Assembly (NCBI RefSeq): GCF_016629565.1
Contig: NZ_AP023057.1
Location: 310,001-374,000 of the forward strand
DNA: 64,000 nucleotides
Source of the DNA: Nitratiruptor sp. YY08-10
Lineage (GTDB): Bacteria > Campylobacterota > Campylobacteria > Campylobacterales > Nitratiruptoraceae
Reading direction: 5' to 3'
The position numbers and the translations under genes are program-made. A model generated the notes under the pieces. That model was not told where the DNA came from, searched no databases, and worked only from the letters and a program-made list of their open reading frames with translations. Of this stretch, positions 107-30,831 are shown piece after piece. Position 1 is the stretch's first letter, and each line of letters starts with the position of its first letter.

Positions 107-1066
107 ATGGCAATTCAAATCAAAGATACGGTAATTCAAACTACCGCGATTGACAGCATTAGAGACAATCTGCTCAATGCCAAGACTGCTACAGGCGGTG
201 CGATTAGTGTGGGTAGAAATATCCACAAAGGCGACTACATCGAGGAAACATTCTTCGACGATTTTGGAAACATCGTGCGAAGAGACCCGACGGTCGACAC
301 GGCTGTAACGCCAGAAAGACTATCTACAAGCGAAGATGTTGCGGTCAAACTCTACTTTAGAGGGGATTTGTTTGTTACGAATACCGAGCTTGAGCGATAT
401 GGTACGACCGTTAAGAATATGAACTCTAAGATCGGAAACAAGATCGGAGAAAAGATCTCGCGATGGACAATAGAAAAAGGGCTTATAGCATTGGTTGCGG
501 CTCTAACTTCAAGAACGGAGCTTGTCGCAGGTGACGGAACTACTGCAGCGGATGTGCAAACTCTTGCCGATGCTGTTTTCAAACTTGGAGACATGAACGA
601 GGATGTGAAGGTGTTTGTGGCTCCATCCATGGTTGCATATCAGCTGCTTCAAAATGCGCTTAATTCTACTGCAGATCAGATTAGCTACGGTGCTGTCTAT
701 GGCGCACAGATTGGAACACTTGGTAGAAAACTTTGGATGGTCGATAACGCAGCGCTTCAATGGAGCGAGGATCTGAATGGAGATGGAGTAAACGAAAACG
801 GATACTACACTCTTGGATTGACTCCCGGTGCAATTACTATCGATGAGAGCGAAGTTGTGAAAATCTTGAGCGATCTTGACATTACACAAGAAAACGCAGG
901 GTATCGATTCAAGGCCGAAGGCGCTTATACGATCAAGGTAAAAGGCTTTAGCTACAACAAAGCCCAAGGTATCAACCCGAGCGACTCTGTACTTGGCAGT
1001 ACTGCAAGCTGGACGCTTGTAAGCGATATTAAAGCTGCTGCAGGCGTTGTAGCCAAAACCGCATAG
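107..1066 (+). CDS. Phage major capsid protein
   Basis: A 319-residue protein that probably builds the phage head shell. It has the length and style of HK97-fold major capsid proteins: an N-terminal arm with mixed charged and beta-prone sequence, a central helical spine region (about residues 100-135) and a Gly/Ala-rich A-domain-like C-terminal half. Its position, just before a tail tube gene and at the left of the tail module, supports this. The ATG at 107 has AAGGAG eight bases upstream. No protease domain is fused. No connector or neck genes follow it apart from one 67-residue ORF, which is unusual. The capsid role is inferred from composition and gene order rather than a diagnostic motif. 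Confidence 0.78.
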   Translation: MAIQIKDTVIQTTAIDSIRDNLLNAKTATGGAISVGRNIHKGDYIEETFFDDFGNIVRRDPTVDTAVTPERLSTSEDVAVKLYFRGDLFVTNTELERYGTTVKNMNSKIGNKIGEKISRWTIEKGLIALVAALTSRTELVAGDGTTAADVQTLADAVFKLGDMNEDVKVFVAPSMVAYQLLQNALNSTADQISYGAVYGAQIGTLGRKLWMVDNAALQWSEDLNGDGVNENGYYTLGLTPGAITIDESEVVKILSDLDITQENAGYRFKAEGAYTIKVKGFSYNKAQGINPSDSVLGSTASWTLVSDIKAAAGVVAKTA

Positions 1067-26396: not shown

Positions 26397-27219
26397 ACTG
26401 GAAAAACTGGCTTTCAAATTGACCAAAAAACCGATGCAAAAAGAGCAGTTTTTTGGGCTTTTGCAAAATCTTTTTGGCTTGTTTGAAGATCCTCAAATTA
26501 TTTATGAAACACTCAAAGCCAGAGGATTCCCTTTGGATGAAAAAGAGAATACAATTTTTTTGAAAACAGCGGTAACGCCATACCAAGAGCAGGAGTTTGT
26601 CGTTGTCGATATCGAGACAAATGGAAGCAAACCGGAATTTGCCCAAGTGATTGAGATAGGAGCCATCAAATTCAAAGGCGATACAATTATTGATCGCTTT
26701 GAAAGTTTTATCTATGCCGAGGATGTCCCTGAGTACATCAGTAAATTAACCGGTATTATACAAACAGATTTAGAGAATGCGCCTTCTCAAAAAGAGGTTT
26801 TGCTGGCTTTTAAAGAGTTTTTACACGATGCGGTTTTTGTTGCTCATAATGTACGCTTTGATTACAACTTTATTTCCAGCAAACTGGAACAGCTTGGTTT
26901 TGAAAAGTTGGCCAATAGAAAGCTTTGCTCCATTGATCTGGCGAGAAAAACGATTCAAAGTGAACGCTATGGTCTGGAGTTTTTAAATGAGAGTTTGGGG
27001 ATCAATACTGCTGTAAGCCATCGCGCATATGCCGATGCATTAACAGCATATAAGATTTTGCAGATGTCTTTTGAAAAATTGCCAAATGATGTGAAAACCA
27101 CAGAGGATTTGATCAAATTTAGCAAAAGTGCGAAACGGAAAAAAACAAAAAAGACTACAAAAGCTTCTGAATCAGCTTTGCCCCCAAAAGATCTCCCCAG
27201 TTGTTCACAGCAGTCCTGA
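26389..27219 (+). CDS. DnaQ-like 3'-5' exonuclease (DEDDh)
   Basis: A 276-residue protein with an N-terminal extension of about 65 residues, then an exonuclease domain: DIETNGS (Asp and Glu of ExoI, about residue 74), AHNVRFDYNF (ExoII) and SHRAYADA (ExoIIIepsilon His-x4-Asp). It is like DNA polymerase III epsilon or a stand-alone proofreading enzyme; Campylobacterota often carry this form. The start is TTG 26389 inside the trpF end. The last 20 or so residues are a Lys/Thr-rich tail, and the final 65 bases overlap the opposite-strand symporter gene. Confidence 0.85.
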   Translation: MNKLEKLAFKLTKKPMQKEQFFGLLQNLFGLFEDPQIIYETLKARGFPLDEKENTIFLKTAVTPYQEQEFVVVDIETNGSKPEFAQVIEIGAIKFKGDTIIDRFESFIYAEDVPEYISKLTGIIQTDLENAPSQKEVLLAFKEFLHDAVFVAHNVRFDYNFISSKLEQLGFEKLANRKLCSIDLARKTIQSERYGLEFLNESLGINTAVSHRAYADALTAYKILQMSFEKLPNDVKTTEDLIKFSKSAKRKKTKKTTKASESALPPKDLPSCSQQS

Positions 27220-28351
27220 ACATATCCAAAAACCGATCAACGGTAATGATAAGTGCTATAGCTTCAACAGGGAGTCCTACGCTGTCAAGGACCATCGTCA
27301 TCATAATGAGTCCTGCTCCCGGTATTCCAGCCGCACCTATAGAAGCAAATGTGACTGTTACAAATATAGTTATTTGCTGAACAAGACTTAATTCCACTCC
27401 GCTGATATTTGCAATAAACAGTACTGCAATCGATTCGTACAAAGCGGTACCGTCCATATTGATGGTTGCTCCAAGAGGCAGAACGAACCCGGCTACTTTT
27501 TTACTGACTCCTCCTTTTTCCTCGGCAACTTCAAGACTTACAGGCAGTGTTGCAGAACTTGATGCGGTGGAAAAGGCGATCAATGGGGCTTCTTTTATCT
27601 GAAGAAAATAGTGATATGAGTTAAATCTTCCAACGAAATATCCAATGGATGGAAGGGTGATAAGAGCATGCAGCATAAGAGCAAGAAGGACCGTCAATAC
27701 ATAGCTGTATAACTCAAAAATCGGCTCCAATCCATTTTTGGCTACTGTTGCAGCAATGAGGAAAAAAACGCCAATCGGTGTTAAAGCGATAACCCATTTT
27801 GCAAGAACCATCATCGCATCATTAACACTATCAAAGAAGTTGTAGAGCACTGTTCGTTTGTGTGATTCGATGAAGAGAGTAGCGATAGCAAAAAGGATCG
27901 TAAAAAAGATAATGGGTAAAATTGCCCCTTTGCTTAAAGCTTCAAAGATATTGGCCGGAATAAAGGAGAGCAAAAAGTCCGATAGTGAAAGCTCTTTTTT
28001 TTCAATCGTTACATTTTGCGGGATTTGCAAGAGATGTTCGCCGGCACCCGGATTGATGAGATGAAAGATCATGATTCCAAGTAGCACTGCGAGGGCCGTT
28101 GTGCTCAGATAATACAAAAAGGCTTTTAAGCCAATGGATTTGAGTTCCTCTTTGCCACTTAATGATGCGATAGCGATAAATATAGAAGCAAATACCAAAG
28201 GAATGATAAGCATTTTTAAAAGTTTAAGATAGATTTGGCCAACTACTTTGAGTTCAGTAGAGAGTGCGGGAAAAAAGTAGCCAAAGGCAATTCCCGCTCC
28301 AATAGCTATAAGCGTGAGGTTTTCTACGCTCAAAAGCTTTTTATGAGCCAT
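27155..28351 (-). CDS. Dicarboxylate/amino acid:cation symporter (DctA/GltP family)
   Basis: A 398-residue polytopic inner-membrane carrier. The family marks are the Ser-rich reentrant loop STASSSATLPVS (about 260-271), LPLGATINMDGTALYE (about 291-306) with the substrate and sodium site, and a late helix with IPGAG and DRFLDMFRTAVNNWGD, including the Asp and Arg/Asn that bind acidic substrates. It probably takes up C4-dicarboxylates or glutamate/aspartate with sodium or protons. The start lies inside the end of the deformylase-like gene (22-base overlap), so translation may be coupled to it. The 3' end overlaps the convergent exonuclease gene. Confidence 0.92.
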   Translation of the reverse strand: MAHKKLLSVENLTLIAIGAGIAFGYFFPALSTELKVVGQIYLKLLKMLIIPLVFASIFIAIASLSGKEELKSIGLKAFLYYLSTTALAVLLGIMIFHLINPGAGEHLLQIPQNVTIEKKELSLSDFLLSFIPANIFEALSKGAILPIIFFTILFAIATLFIESHKRTVLYNFFDSVNDAMMVLAKWVIALTPIGVFFLIAATVAKNGLEPIFELYSYVLTVLLALMLHALITLPSIGYFVGRFNSYHYFLQIKEAPLIAFSTASSSATLPVSLEVAEEKGGVSKKVAGFVLPLGATINMDGTALYESIAVLFIANISGVELSLVQQITIFVTVTFASIGAAGIPGAGLIMMTMVLDSVGLPVEAIALIITVDRFLDMFRTAVNNWGDLLGAKLIQKLL

Positions 28352-29124
28352 GAGCCTCCATAAAGAGCTGCTATTATTGCCATATAAAGAGCACTTGTTC
28401 CTATAATATTTGCATTTTGACAGGAAGTACAGTTTTTATATTTTTTGGTTTCATATCGAGCATAGATTGCATAAAAAATAAGCCAAGCAAATTCCAATAG
28501 AAAAAGAGGCGTATTGTATGTTAGAACAAATCGAGCAAAATTTACGAATATGGCAAGGAGAAGCAAGAAGAAATGACCCACCAAGAAGAGACGAAGGGCT
28601 GTTAAAATTCTGTCTTTGATGAAATAGGTAGGACAAGTGTCACCGTAGCTTCCGTACTCTTTGAAAAACTTTTTCTGCTCTTTTTTTGAGAGCTTATCAA
28701 ACAGATATCCACCAAATACCATATCGATCTTTCGCTGAAGCAGAACTGCTTCATCATCTTTGGCAATATAAAATTTTTGGTTGCCTTGAAGATCTTCATA
28801 CATGATCTTTATAACAGGATAGCGATTGACGGTCACTTCTATGTTTGGTAAACTCTCATCACTTTCCGTTGAAGCAAAATATTGTCCCTCTTTCCCATAG
28901 ATCGTGGGATTGATCATCACTTCATAGTTGCCATCCTTCTTTTTCAAAACGATGATGCGTAGAGGTACACCGATTTGGATAGCGGCAAGTGCCTGGAGGT
29001 TGTTCTCTTCAATTGTCTTTTTAATCTCTTCGACGATTTCATTGATTTTTGGATCTTTAAAGTCTCGGACAAAACCTGAAATTTGTAATAATGTATGATC
29101 AGGATAGGTCAGAATCTTTGCCAT
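28330..29124 (-). CDS. Peptide deformylase-like protein lacking metal ligands, fused to a membrane domain
   Basis: A 264-residue protein. Residues 1-155 follow the peptide deformylase fold: MAKILTYPDHTLLQ start, NNLQALAAIQIG at the GxGLAAxQ site, an ESDESLP stretch at the EGCLS site, and QRKIDMVFGGYLFDKLS at the HExDH site. The Cys and both His ligands and the catalytic Glu are replaced (Arg131, Lys132 and Met135 at the last motif), so it cannot bind iron or deformylate as known enzymes do. Residues about 171-200, 205-223 and 240-260 are hydrophobic helices, and a Cys pair (NCTSC, 232-236) lies between the last two. I know no standard family with this fusion. A binding or regulatory role is possible. 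Confidence 0.75.
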   Translation of the reverse strand: MAKILTYPDHTLLQISGFVRDFKDPKINEIVEEIKKTIEENNLQALAAIQIGVPLRIIVLKKKDGNYEVMINPTIYGKEGQYFASTESDESLPNIEVTVNRYPVIKIMYEDLQGNQKFYIAKDDEAVLLQRKIDMVFGGYLFDKLSKKEQKKFFKEYGSYGDTCPTYFIKDRILTALRLFLVGHFFLLLLAIFVNFARFVLTYNTPLFLLEFAWLIFYAIYARYETKKYKNCTSCQNANIIGTSALYMAIIAALYGGSWLIKSF

Positions 29125-29142: not shown

Positions 29143-29160
29143 AAGGGGGCAAAGCCCCTT
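29143..29160 (-). terminator. GC-rich hairpin between the SQR unit and the deformylase-like gene
   Basis: AAGGGG pairs with CCCCTT (29143-29148 and 29155-29160) around a short loop. It follows the stop of the 58-residue gene by three bases on the minus strand. The T-run is poor in that direction, so it may only partly stop transcription. Confidence 0.5.
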
Positions 29161-29163
29161 GTT

Positions 29164-29340
29164 TTAGTGGTGAGATTTAGAAACGACTGCCAACATTTTG
29201 AGGTTGATGATGATAAATCGGATAAACTGCCAGATTTTGCATGTTCTTAGGAATCGCTGAAAAGGTCCTGGAATCATAGTTCCGTACGTTTTATCATCAT
29301 ATGGTGTAATGTTCTTTTGTATATCTTTGTAATCTGCCAT
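29164..29340 (-). CDS. 58-residue protein downstream of SQR, possible membrane anchor
   Basis: Reading the minus strand from ATG 29340 gives 58 residues: a polar N-terminus (MADYKDIQKNITPYDDKTYG), PGPFQRFLRTCK, and a hydrophobic helix (about WQFIRFIIINLKMLAVV) with basic residues at its edge. The ribosome site AAAAAGGAGCAAC is strong and the gene starts 15 bases after the SQR stop, followed by a hairpin, so it belongs to the SQR transcript. I do not recognise the family. An amphipathic or membrane-bound companion of the flavoprotein is a reasonable guess. Confidence 0.75.
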   Translation of the reverse strand: MADYKDIQKNITPYDDKTYGTMIPGPFQRFLRTCKIWQFIRFIIINLKMLAVVSKSHH

Positions 29341-29355: not shown

Positions 29356-30831
29356 TTATTCAGGGATGAGTGTCCATCCTGGTTTGAGTTGCGCTTTCCA
29401 CATAAACATGTAGTGCAAGATATGCTTGATCCAGTGACCTGCAAGACCAATCTCACCAAAAGTGTATTCTGGATCTCGTCCGGTTCCTGGGAATCTGTCA
29501 TAATCTGGTACAACTGGATAAACTGTCAATGCTACGGCTGAACCATTCCAGATACTTTTACCAGTTGAAGCCACACATGCTGCACCCATTTCTGCCATAG
29601 AAGCGTGATGACCTTTCTCTTTTACTTCTTCTAGGCTGTATTTTCCTTCGATCACATCACACACTGTTCGTGCGACAGTTTTACCGATGATTCCTGAAGG
29701 CATACCGGTTCTTGGAGGTGCCGGAGTGATTGGTGTACCGTTGACAGATTTTGCCGGTTTAGAAATTGGGTGAGGAGGTGCAAATGCGATACCTACTGCA
29801 AATATATTTGCATAATCTGGGTTTTGATAATATTTTGGCCAGTCGCTAGCTTTCCACTCTTCAAAAGGTTTCGGAGTGTAGTCTGCATCTACTTTCATAA
29901 AACCGTTTGGAGCGAAAACTTTATCTGTAATGTCATTACCAGCTTTATCATATGCTTTAAGACCTACACCGCTAAATGGAGGAATGAGCATTGCAAAATC
30001 AAATGTCTCTTCGCCTTCTGTTCCATCAAGAAGTTCGTACTGGAGTTTTCCTTTTTGTACTTCTTTGACGTGAGCTCCTGTGATCCAGTCAACACCACGT
30101 TCCGCAAAGAGTGATTCAGCCAATACTTTAGAGCTTACAATATGGCCACCCCATTTGATATGAAGACCTGCAACTCCGAAGTCACCAAGGAACTGCTCAT
30201 TTGAGATCCATTTGATTTCCGCTTTATCTCGAACACCTGCTTCTCTGAGTTCATGCTCGATGTTGAAGATATACTCAAACGCCGCCCCTTGACAGGTACA
30301 CATACCATGACCTGTACCGATGAGGAATTTTACTTTTTCCCCTTTTTTCATGCGTTCAATTGCATTTTGAAAATGGTTGTTTGCTTCAGCAGCATGTTGA
30401 TAAGTACATACTGAAAGTGAGTTTCCTTCGTCTGGTCCAAGTCCAGGAGTCGCAGCAAAGTTGAGTTTTGGACCTGTAGCATTGATGAGATAGTCATACT
30501 CTACCTCTTCAGTCTGGCCTTTTTTGTTTGGATCAGTATATTCGATTGTAACAAATGGTCTATCGCTTCCCTCTTTTCCTTCTGGATGGATGGAAACAGC
30601 TTTTGCCTGTCGAAAGTCGATGCCAGCCTTCTTATATACAGGAGCCAATTCGAAAATAACATCCTCTGGCTTCATCTCACCGACACCGACCCAGATATTG
30701 GATGGAATCCAGTTCCATTTACTGTTCGGAGATACTACTACTACTTCATGTTTGTCGCCAAGCCAATGCTTTGCAAAAGTAGCAGCAGTATGTCCGGAGA
30801 CACCAGCACCTAATACAACGATTCTTGCCAT
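29356..30831 (-). CDS. sqr: Sulfide:quinone oxidoreductase-type flavoprotein
   Basis: A 491-residue FAD enzyme that likely oxidises sulfide and reduces quinone at the inner membrane. The dinucleotide loop GAGVSGHTAA is at residues 8-17, and the second conserved stretch is YDYLINATGPKLNF. Redox Cys candidates are in GMCTCQGAAFEY (about 173 and 175) and GAACVAST (about 436). The C-terminus has aromatic, amphipathic segments (HWIKHILHYMFMWKAQL) that would sit on the membrane. It is longer than the classic type I enzyme (about 430), and I cannot assign the SQR type with certainty. A flavocytochrome c-type sulfide dehydrogenase is less likely because no haem partner is adjacent. Confidence 0.83.
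   Translation of the reverse strand: MARIVVLGAGVSGHTAATFAKHWLGDKHEVVVVSPNSKWNWIPSNIWVGVGEMKPEDVIFELAPVYKKAGIDFRQAKAVSIHPEGKEGSDRPFVTIEYTDPNKKGQTEEVEYDYLINATGPKLNFAATPGLGPDEGNSLSVCTYQHAAEANNHFQNAIERMKKGEKVKFLIGTGHGMCTCQGAAFEYIFNIEHELREAGVRDKAEIKWISNEQFLGDFGVAGLHIKWGGHIVSSKVLAESLFAERGVDWITGAHVKEVQKGKLQYELLDGTEGEETFDFAMLIPPFSGVGLKAYDKAGNDITDKVFAPNGFMKVDADYTPKPFEEWKASDWPKYYQNPDYANIFAVGIAFAPPHPISKPAKSVNGTPITPAPPRTGMPSGIIGKTVARTVCDVIEGKYSLEEVKEKGHHASMAEMGAACVASTGKSIWNGSAVALTVYPVVPDYDRFPGTGRDPEYTFGEIGLAGHWIKHILHYMFMWKAQLKPGWTLIPE

Follow-up and report, generated by a model that had tools for sequence, protein, structure and literature searches.

Peptide deformylase is a textbook metalloenzyme and a drug target. 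The locus described here, in a window of 64,000 nucleotides of Nitratiruptor sp. YY08-10 DNA (contig NZ_AP023057.1), raises the question of what the deformylase fold may do once its metal site is lost and it is joined to membrane helices. In a first-pass annotation, made from the sequence alone, a 264-residue protein in this window was described as a deformylase fold without metal ligands, followed by a three-helix membrane domain with a Cys pair, and was read as a former enzyme reused, perhaps for the sensing of nascent chains or formylated peptides at the membrane. The features of the locus are given in Table 1. The protein is encoded by the third gene of a cassette in the order sulfide:quinone oxidoreductase (SQR), a small membrane-peptide ORF, a stem-loop, and the pseudo-deformylase. 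With moderate confidence, the dead, membrane-tethered fold is taken here as a dedicated but optional accessory of SQR, for which a role in assembly or scaffolding appears the most likely.

Table 1. Features of the SQR cassette and its downstream neighbour, in window positions.
Feature	Position	Strand	Basis or remark
SDF-family dicarboxylate/amino-acid symporter	27155..28351	(-)	22-nt overlap with the 3' end of the pseudo-deformylase gene
Pseudo-deformylase membrane protein, 264 aa, ATG start	28330..29124	(-)	sequence, profile, AF2, Foldseek
Parts of the protein: deformylase fold, residues 1 to ~157; C164 (CP motif); TM1 169-190; TM2 204-228; C232-x-x-C235; TM3 230-263			
CTSC (CxxC), residues 232-235, predicted cytosolic end of TM3	28420..28431	(-)	sequence, alignment, AF2
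QRKIDM, residues 130-135, at the QHExDH position	28720..28737	(-)	sequence and alignments
ESDESLP, residues 87-93, at the EGCLSxP position; metal Cys replaced by Asp	28846..28866	(-)	sequence and alignments
Stem-loop just 3' of the small-ORF stop	29144..29160	(-)	no U-tract in gene direction
Conserved 58-aa peptide, predicted as a membrane-associated helix; single Cys (RTCKIWQFIRFIIINLKMLAVVSKSHH end)	29164..29340	(-)	
SQR, 491 aa, conserved Cys 142, 178, 180, 419	29356..30831	(-)	

The N-terminal part of the protein (residues 1-150) matches the deformylase profile PF01327 with an E-value of 1.5e-36 and 125.8 bits against a cut-off of 22.8. All NCBIfam deformylase cut-offs are missed widely, including those of TIGR00079 (63.5 bits, cut-off 103.95) and NF009484 (67.8 bits, cut-off 190). 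The AF2 model, built from 76 homologues, has a mean pLDDT of 93.4 and adopts the deformylase fold; the top Foldseek matches are all deformylases, the best being Helicobacter pylori PDF 2ew7 (E 5.9e-15, TM 0.82 normalised to the target). A fold unlike deformylase is thereby ruled out, and the retention of the fold proposed earlier is confirmed. In comparison with the H. pylori (PDB codes: 2ew5, 2ew7) and Escherichia coli enzymes, the fold is shared over residues 3-157, and the motif II Glu, the Arg that follows it, and the Gln and Asp of motif III are kept. Unlike these enzymes, however, the pseudo-deformylase has lost all three metal ligands and the catalytic Glu, is fused to a CxxC membrane domain, and sits in an SQR cassette. 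The changes at the metal site, seen in alignment to the PDB deformylases, are those described in the first-pass annotation, namely the loss of both His and the Glu at HExDH and of the Cys at EGCLS. Since the defining catalytic features fail, the 264-residue protein is to be regarded, on its sequence, as a deformylase homologue and not as a deformylase enzyme, and its activity is predicted to be absent. An intact def gene with EGCLS and QHEMDH is found elsewhere in the same genome (G000:C1:151301-151765), as the reuse reading had anticipated, which excludes the loss of the genome's sole def.

A pattern scan of genome contigs recovered nine relatives of the pseudo-deformylase, all in Campylobacterota; the genome of the window grouped with Nitratiruptor relatives. 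Among 397 genomes of Campylobacteria, 87 copies were counted in 79 genomes from several families; the families labelled f2 and f3, a large share of this sample, have none. Residue conservation was followed in 76 aligned homologues, in which the metal Cys, the catalytic Glu and the second His are kept in none and the first His in two, so that no member with intact ligands was found and a recent mutation of an active def is ruled out. The Cys is replaced by T, D, S or N, the first His by R or Q, the Glu by K, Q, M, Y or T, and the second His by Y, M, F, L or I; judged from the residues at these positions (R/Q, K/Q, Y/M/F, T/D/S), the family has no plausible metal-ligand set. Invariant or nearly so are E87 and R101 (the motif II Glu and the following Arg), Q130, D134, C232, and C235; Q50 is kept in most members, and most of motif I is retained. 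In a phylogenetic tree, 82 pseudo-deformylases and 21 catalytic def sequences of the same class are split by one branch with a support of 100/100. The ratio dN/dS in close pairs of pseudo-deformylases is about 0.03-0.13, with some dS values near saturation. The pseudo-deformylase is therefore an old pseudoenzyme, maintained by purifying selection across sulfide-oxidising Campylobacterota, and not a gene in decay. Deformylase homologues described as inactive also occur in Gram-positive bacteria and archaea ('type III') and in kinetoplastids (PDF1); unlike the present family, these are soluble proteins in which the metal motif is largely retained.

The membrane domain with its Cys pair is equally borne out. 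The AF2 model places three long helices after the deformylase fold (Table 1), with a short one at residues 195-202, and both Cys of the CxxC motif are invariant in the 76 homologues. Ahead of TM1, a CP motif contains a further conserved Cys, C164, which was overlooked earlier and is present in 74 of them. The domain matches no known family, isolated Pfam matches occurring in single members only, and outside the fusion it gave a single marginal, stop-containing match. The protein has no signal peptide and the loop between TM2 and TM3 carries positive residues; therefore, the deformylase domain is predicted to be cytosolic, and C164, C232, and C235 would be situated below it, where the membrane meets the cytosol. 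A role for this Cys trio is suggested by its conservation.

The first gene of the cassette is homologous to the SQRs of types I and IV (Aquifex, PDB code: 3hyv; Acidithiobacillus ferrooxidans, PDB code: 3sx6) and has a conserved Cys set. It begins with MARIVVLGAG, the start of a nucleotide-binding fold, and has no recognisable export signal. By PDB match it is closest to type I structures (best match 3hyv, E 5.7e-39). According to PMC4584964, types I and IV belong to a single clade, and every Sulfurimonas sequenced has conserved type IV; on this basis of clade and distribution, the SQR of the window is probably of type IV.

All 79 genomes with a pseudo-deformylase also have SQR, while 32 have SQR only and 286 have neither, a co-occurrence measured within one class and in part due to shared ancestry. 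The Fisher p-value calculated for it takes no account of relatedness and overstates the association. In 71 copies the pseudo-deformylase lies 216-578 bp downstream of SQR, and in three further genomes of one genus it is about 7.4 kb away. The three-gene order is kept while the surroundings vary from family to family. In the family of the window the cassette is flanked by polyphosphate kinase and a symporter, in a second it is preceded by an M1 aminopeptidase and followed by a histidine kinase, and in a third the neighbours are ferredoxin-oxidoreductase genes and ribosomal L13/S9. This kept order amid changing flanks is more telling for the link with SQR than the co-occurrence statistic. In three loci (L126, L130, L141), SQR, the small ORF, and the kinase are present and the pseudo-deformylase is missing from its slot; the pseudo-deformylase is therefore separable, and the kinase, which stays without it, is weakened as a dedicated partner. 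The symporter is ruled out as a partner, as it occupies this place only in the family of the window and is outside the core cassette. Its overlap with the pseudo-deformylase gene suggests translational coupling in that family.

The small ORF was traced by a profile search and is present in every locus in which the pseudo-deformylase follows SQR, and also beside SQR in all checked genomes that lack the pseudo-deformylase, always on the downstream side of SQR. Therefore, SQR and the small peptide form the core of the cassette, with the pseudo-deformylase as a third, optional gene. The peptide is 53-60 residues long across homologous loci, with a near-invariant core of R32, C34, Q38, R41, N46, K48, and a KSH end. 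Its Cys is kept in 75 of 75 loci with the pseudo-deformylase and in 19 of 20 loci without an adjacent one, so that a co-dependence of the Cys of the two proteins is not seen. Neither a known family nor a solved structure was found for it, and its structure model is of low confidence; the peptide is a candidate small subunit or anchor of SQR. Three automatic ORF families over this ORF (6, 30, and 48) proved in the HMM search to be wrong-frame or antisense readings.

Between the small ORF and the pseudo-deformylase gene, a stem-loop is conserved in position and divergent in sequence in most homologous loci (L004-L141), at a median of 9 nt after the small-ORF stop. In loci with the pseudo-deformylase its mean score is 13.0, compared with 4.9 for shuffled sequences, and 47% are strong versus 0%; in loci without it, the mean is 10.5 versus 5.1. 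The stretch further downstream scores near background. The lack of a U-tract in most loci means that the stem-loop is not a classic terminator, and we infer that it acts in mRNA processing or as a 3' end, so that mRNA of sqr and the small ORF would be favoured over that of the downstream gene.

Of the 87 pseudo-deformylase copies, sixteen lack an adjacent SQR gene; one clade of paralogues stands alone. Such paralogues (L065, L069, L050, L056, and L096) lie near MerR and CMD/AhpD-like genes, and in two genomes near a DsrE-like gene; with such neighbours, a connection to the chemistry of thiols or sulfur is more likely than one to translation. At another non-SQR copy (L094) the small ORF is still present beside it.

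A possible mode of action can be described as follows. The deformylase domain, facing the cytosol, would act as a binding and scaffolding module that helps newly made SQR and its 58-residue membrane partner to assemble on the membrane, and the Cys trio may give a redox or persulfide contact. The retained E87, R101, and most of motif I would allow peptide binding by the groove. The stem-loop suggests that the pseudo-deformylase is made in a lower amount than SQR, as would be expected of a factor for assembly or quality control rather than of a stoichiometric subunit. Since 32 genomes have SQR and the small peptide without the pseudo-deformylase, the latter is not essential for SQR.

Other readings have to be weighed against this one. 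That the gene is a functionless, degenerate def duplicate, or that it encodes a cryptic deformylase whose metal site has changed, agrees with Pfam and public annotation, which still call it a deformylase; it is hardly credible, however, in view of the low dN/dS, the spread of the copies over 79 genomes, and the residues that have taken the place of the ligands. A relay of redox equivalents or sulfur, in which the CxxC and C164 take persulfide or electrons from SQR or its polysulfide products and pass them on, with the deformylase domain as a docking platform, would account for the conservation of all three Cys (76/76, 76/76, and 74/76) and of the peptide Cys in the 75 loci, as well as for the paralogues near DsrE and AhpD-like CxxC proteins. 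Nevertheless, the trio is predicted to be cytosolic, whereas SQR is usually taken to oxidise sulfide on the periplasmic side; moreover, the peptide Cys persists in 19 of the 20 loci in which no pseudo-deformylase is adjacent, and no similar relay protein is known. This reading, the next in likelihood after the preferred one, is considered rather doubtful.

Of the original proposal, the reuse of a former enzyme is well supported by the fold, the universal ligand loss, the single ancient clade, purifying selection, and the intact def elsewhere, whereas the proposed sensing of nascent chains or formylated peptides found no positive support of its own, the context pointing to SQR (79/79 genomes, 71 copies adjacent). 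A wider version, in which the protein senses or regulates in response to sulfide, formylated peptides, or nascent chains and signals to a partner such as the downstream histidine kinase, is unlikely: a hybrid kinase is indeed the next gene in one family, accompanied by a convergent response regulator gene, E87, R101, and mostly Q50 are retained, and MerR regulators stand beside some paralogues, but the kinase stays in the cassette without the pseudo-deformylase, is absent from the window's family, where the symporter follows instead, and no signalling domain was found in the pseudo-deformylase. It is improbable that the protein serves in targeting, by binding nascent SQR at its formylated N-terminus and handing it to the membrane. 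In favour of this, N-formyl-Met peptides are the normal ligands of the deformylase fold, the domain is membrane-tethered, and SQR has no signal peptide; against this, Arg and Lys now fill the metal site, peptide binding by the groove is putative, and paralogues occur without SQR nearby. In its most specific form, the metal-stripped fold would be docked at the membrane and would read the formylated N-terminus of a single client, nascent SQR. This is highly improbable; if true, it would explain how an SQR without a signal reaches the membrane.

For the assembly of SQR on the membrane, the cassette, with an assembly or scaffold role of the pseudo-deformylase as the preferred reading, offers a directly testable candidate; it also reveals a conserved 58-residue partner of SQR. 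In the open-access literature searched, no paper was found on an SQR cassette with a pseudo-deformylase or the 58-residue peptide, on a link between deformylase and SQR in Sulfurimonas, or on a pseudoenzyme deformylase. In this large and old family, the fold has outlived its chemistry and turned membrane-bound, and it appears to have been enlisted for the oxidation of sulfide by chemoautotrophs that are major in the deep sea.

At the end of the SQR cassette in one family, the hybrid histidine kinase (L052:2943-5270 and others) has HisKA, HATPase, receiver, and Hpt domains, and together with the convergent response regulator gene beside it is a candidate sulfide-response system. Viral relatives of the pseudo-deformylase were ordinary phage deformylases only, matching the deformylase domain, and plasmid matches were one Sulfurovum locus and soluble deformylase homologues. 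That locus, on a 395-kb plasmid of Sulfurovum mangrovi (NZ_CP087125.1; L162:5713-6528), has an SQR-like gene, the small ORF, and a pseudo-deformylase whose annotation is split into two 'peptide deformylase' CDS pieces; the copy may be broken. The public label 'peptide deformylase', carried by at least one homologue in a S. mangrovi record, is misleading.
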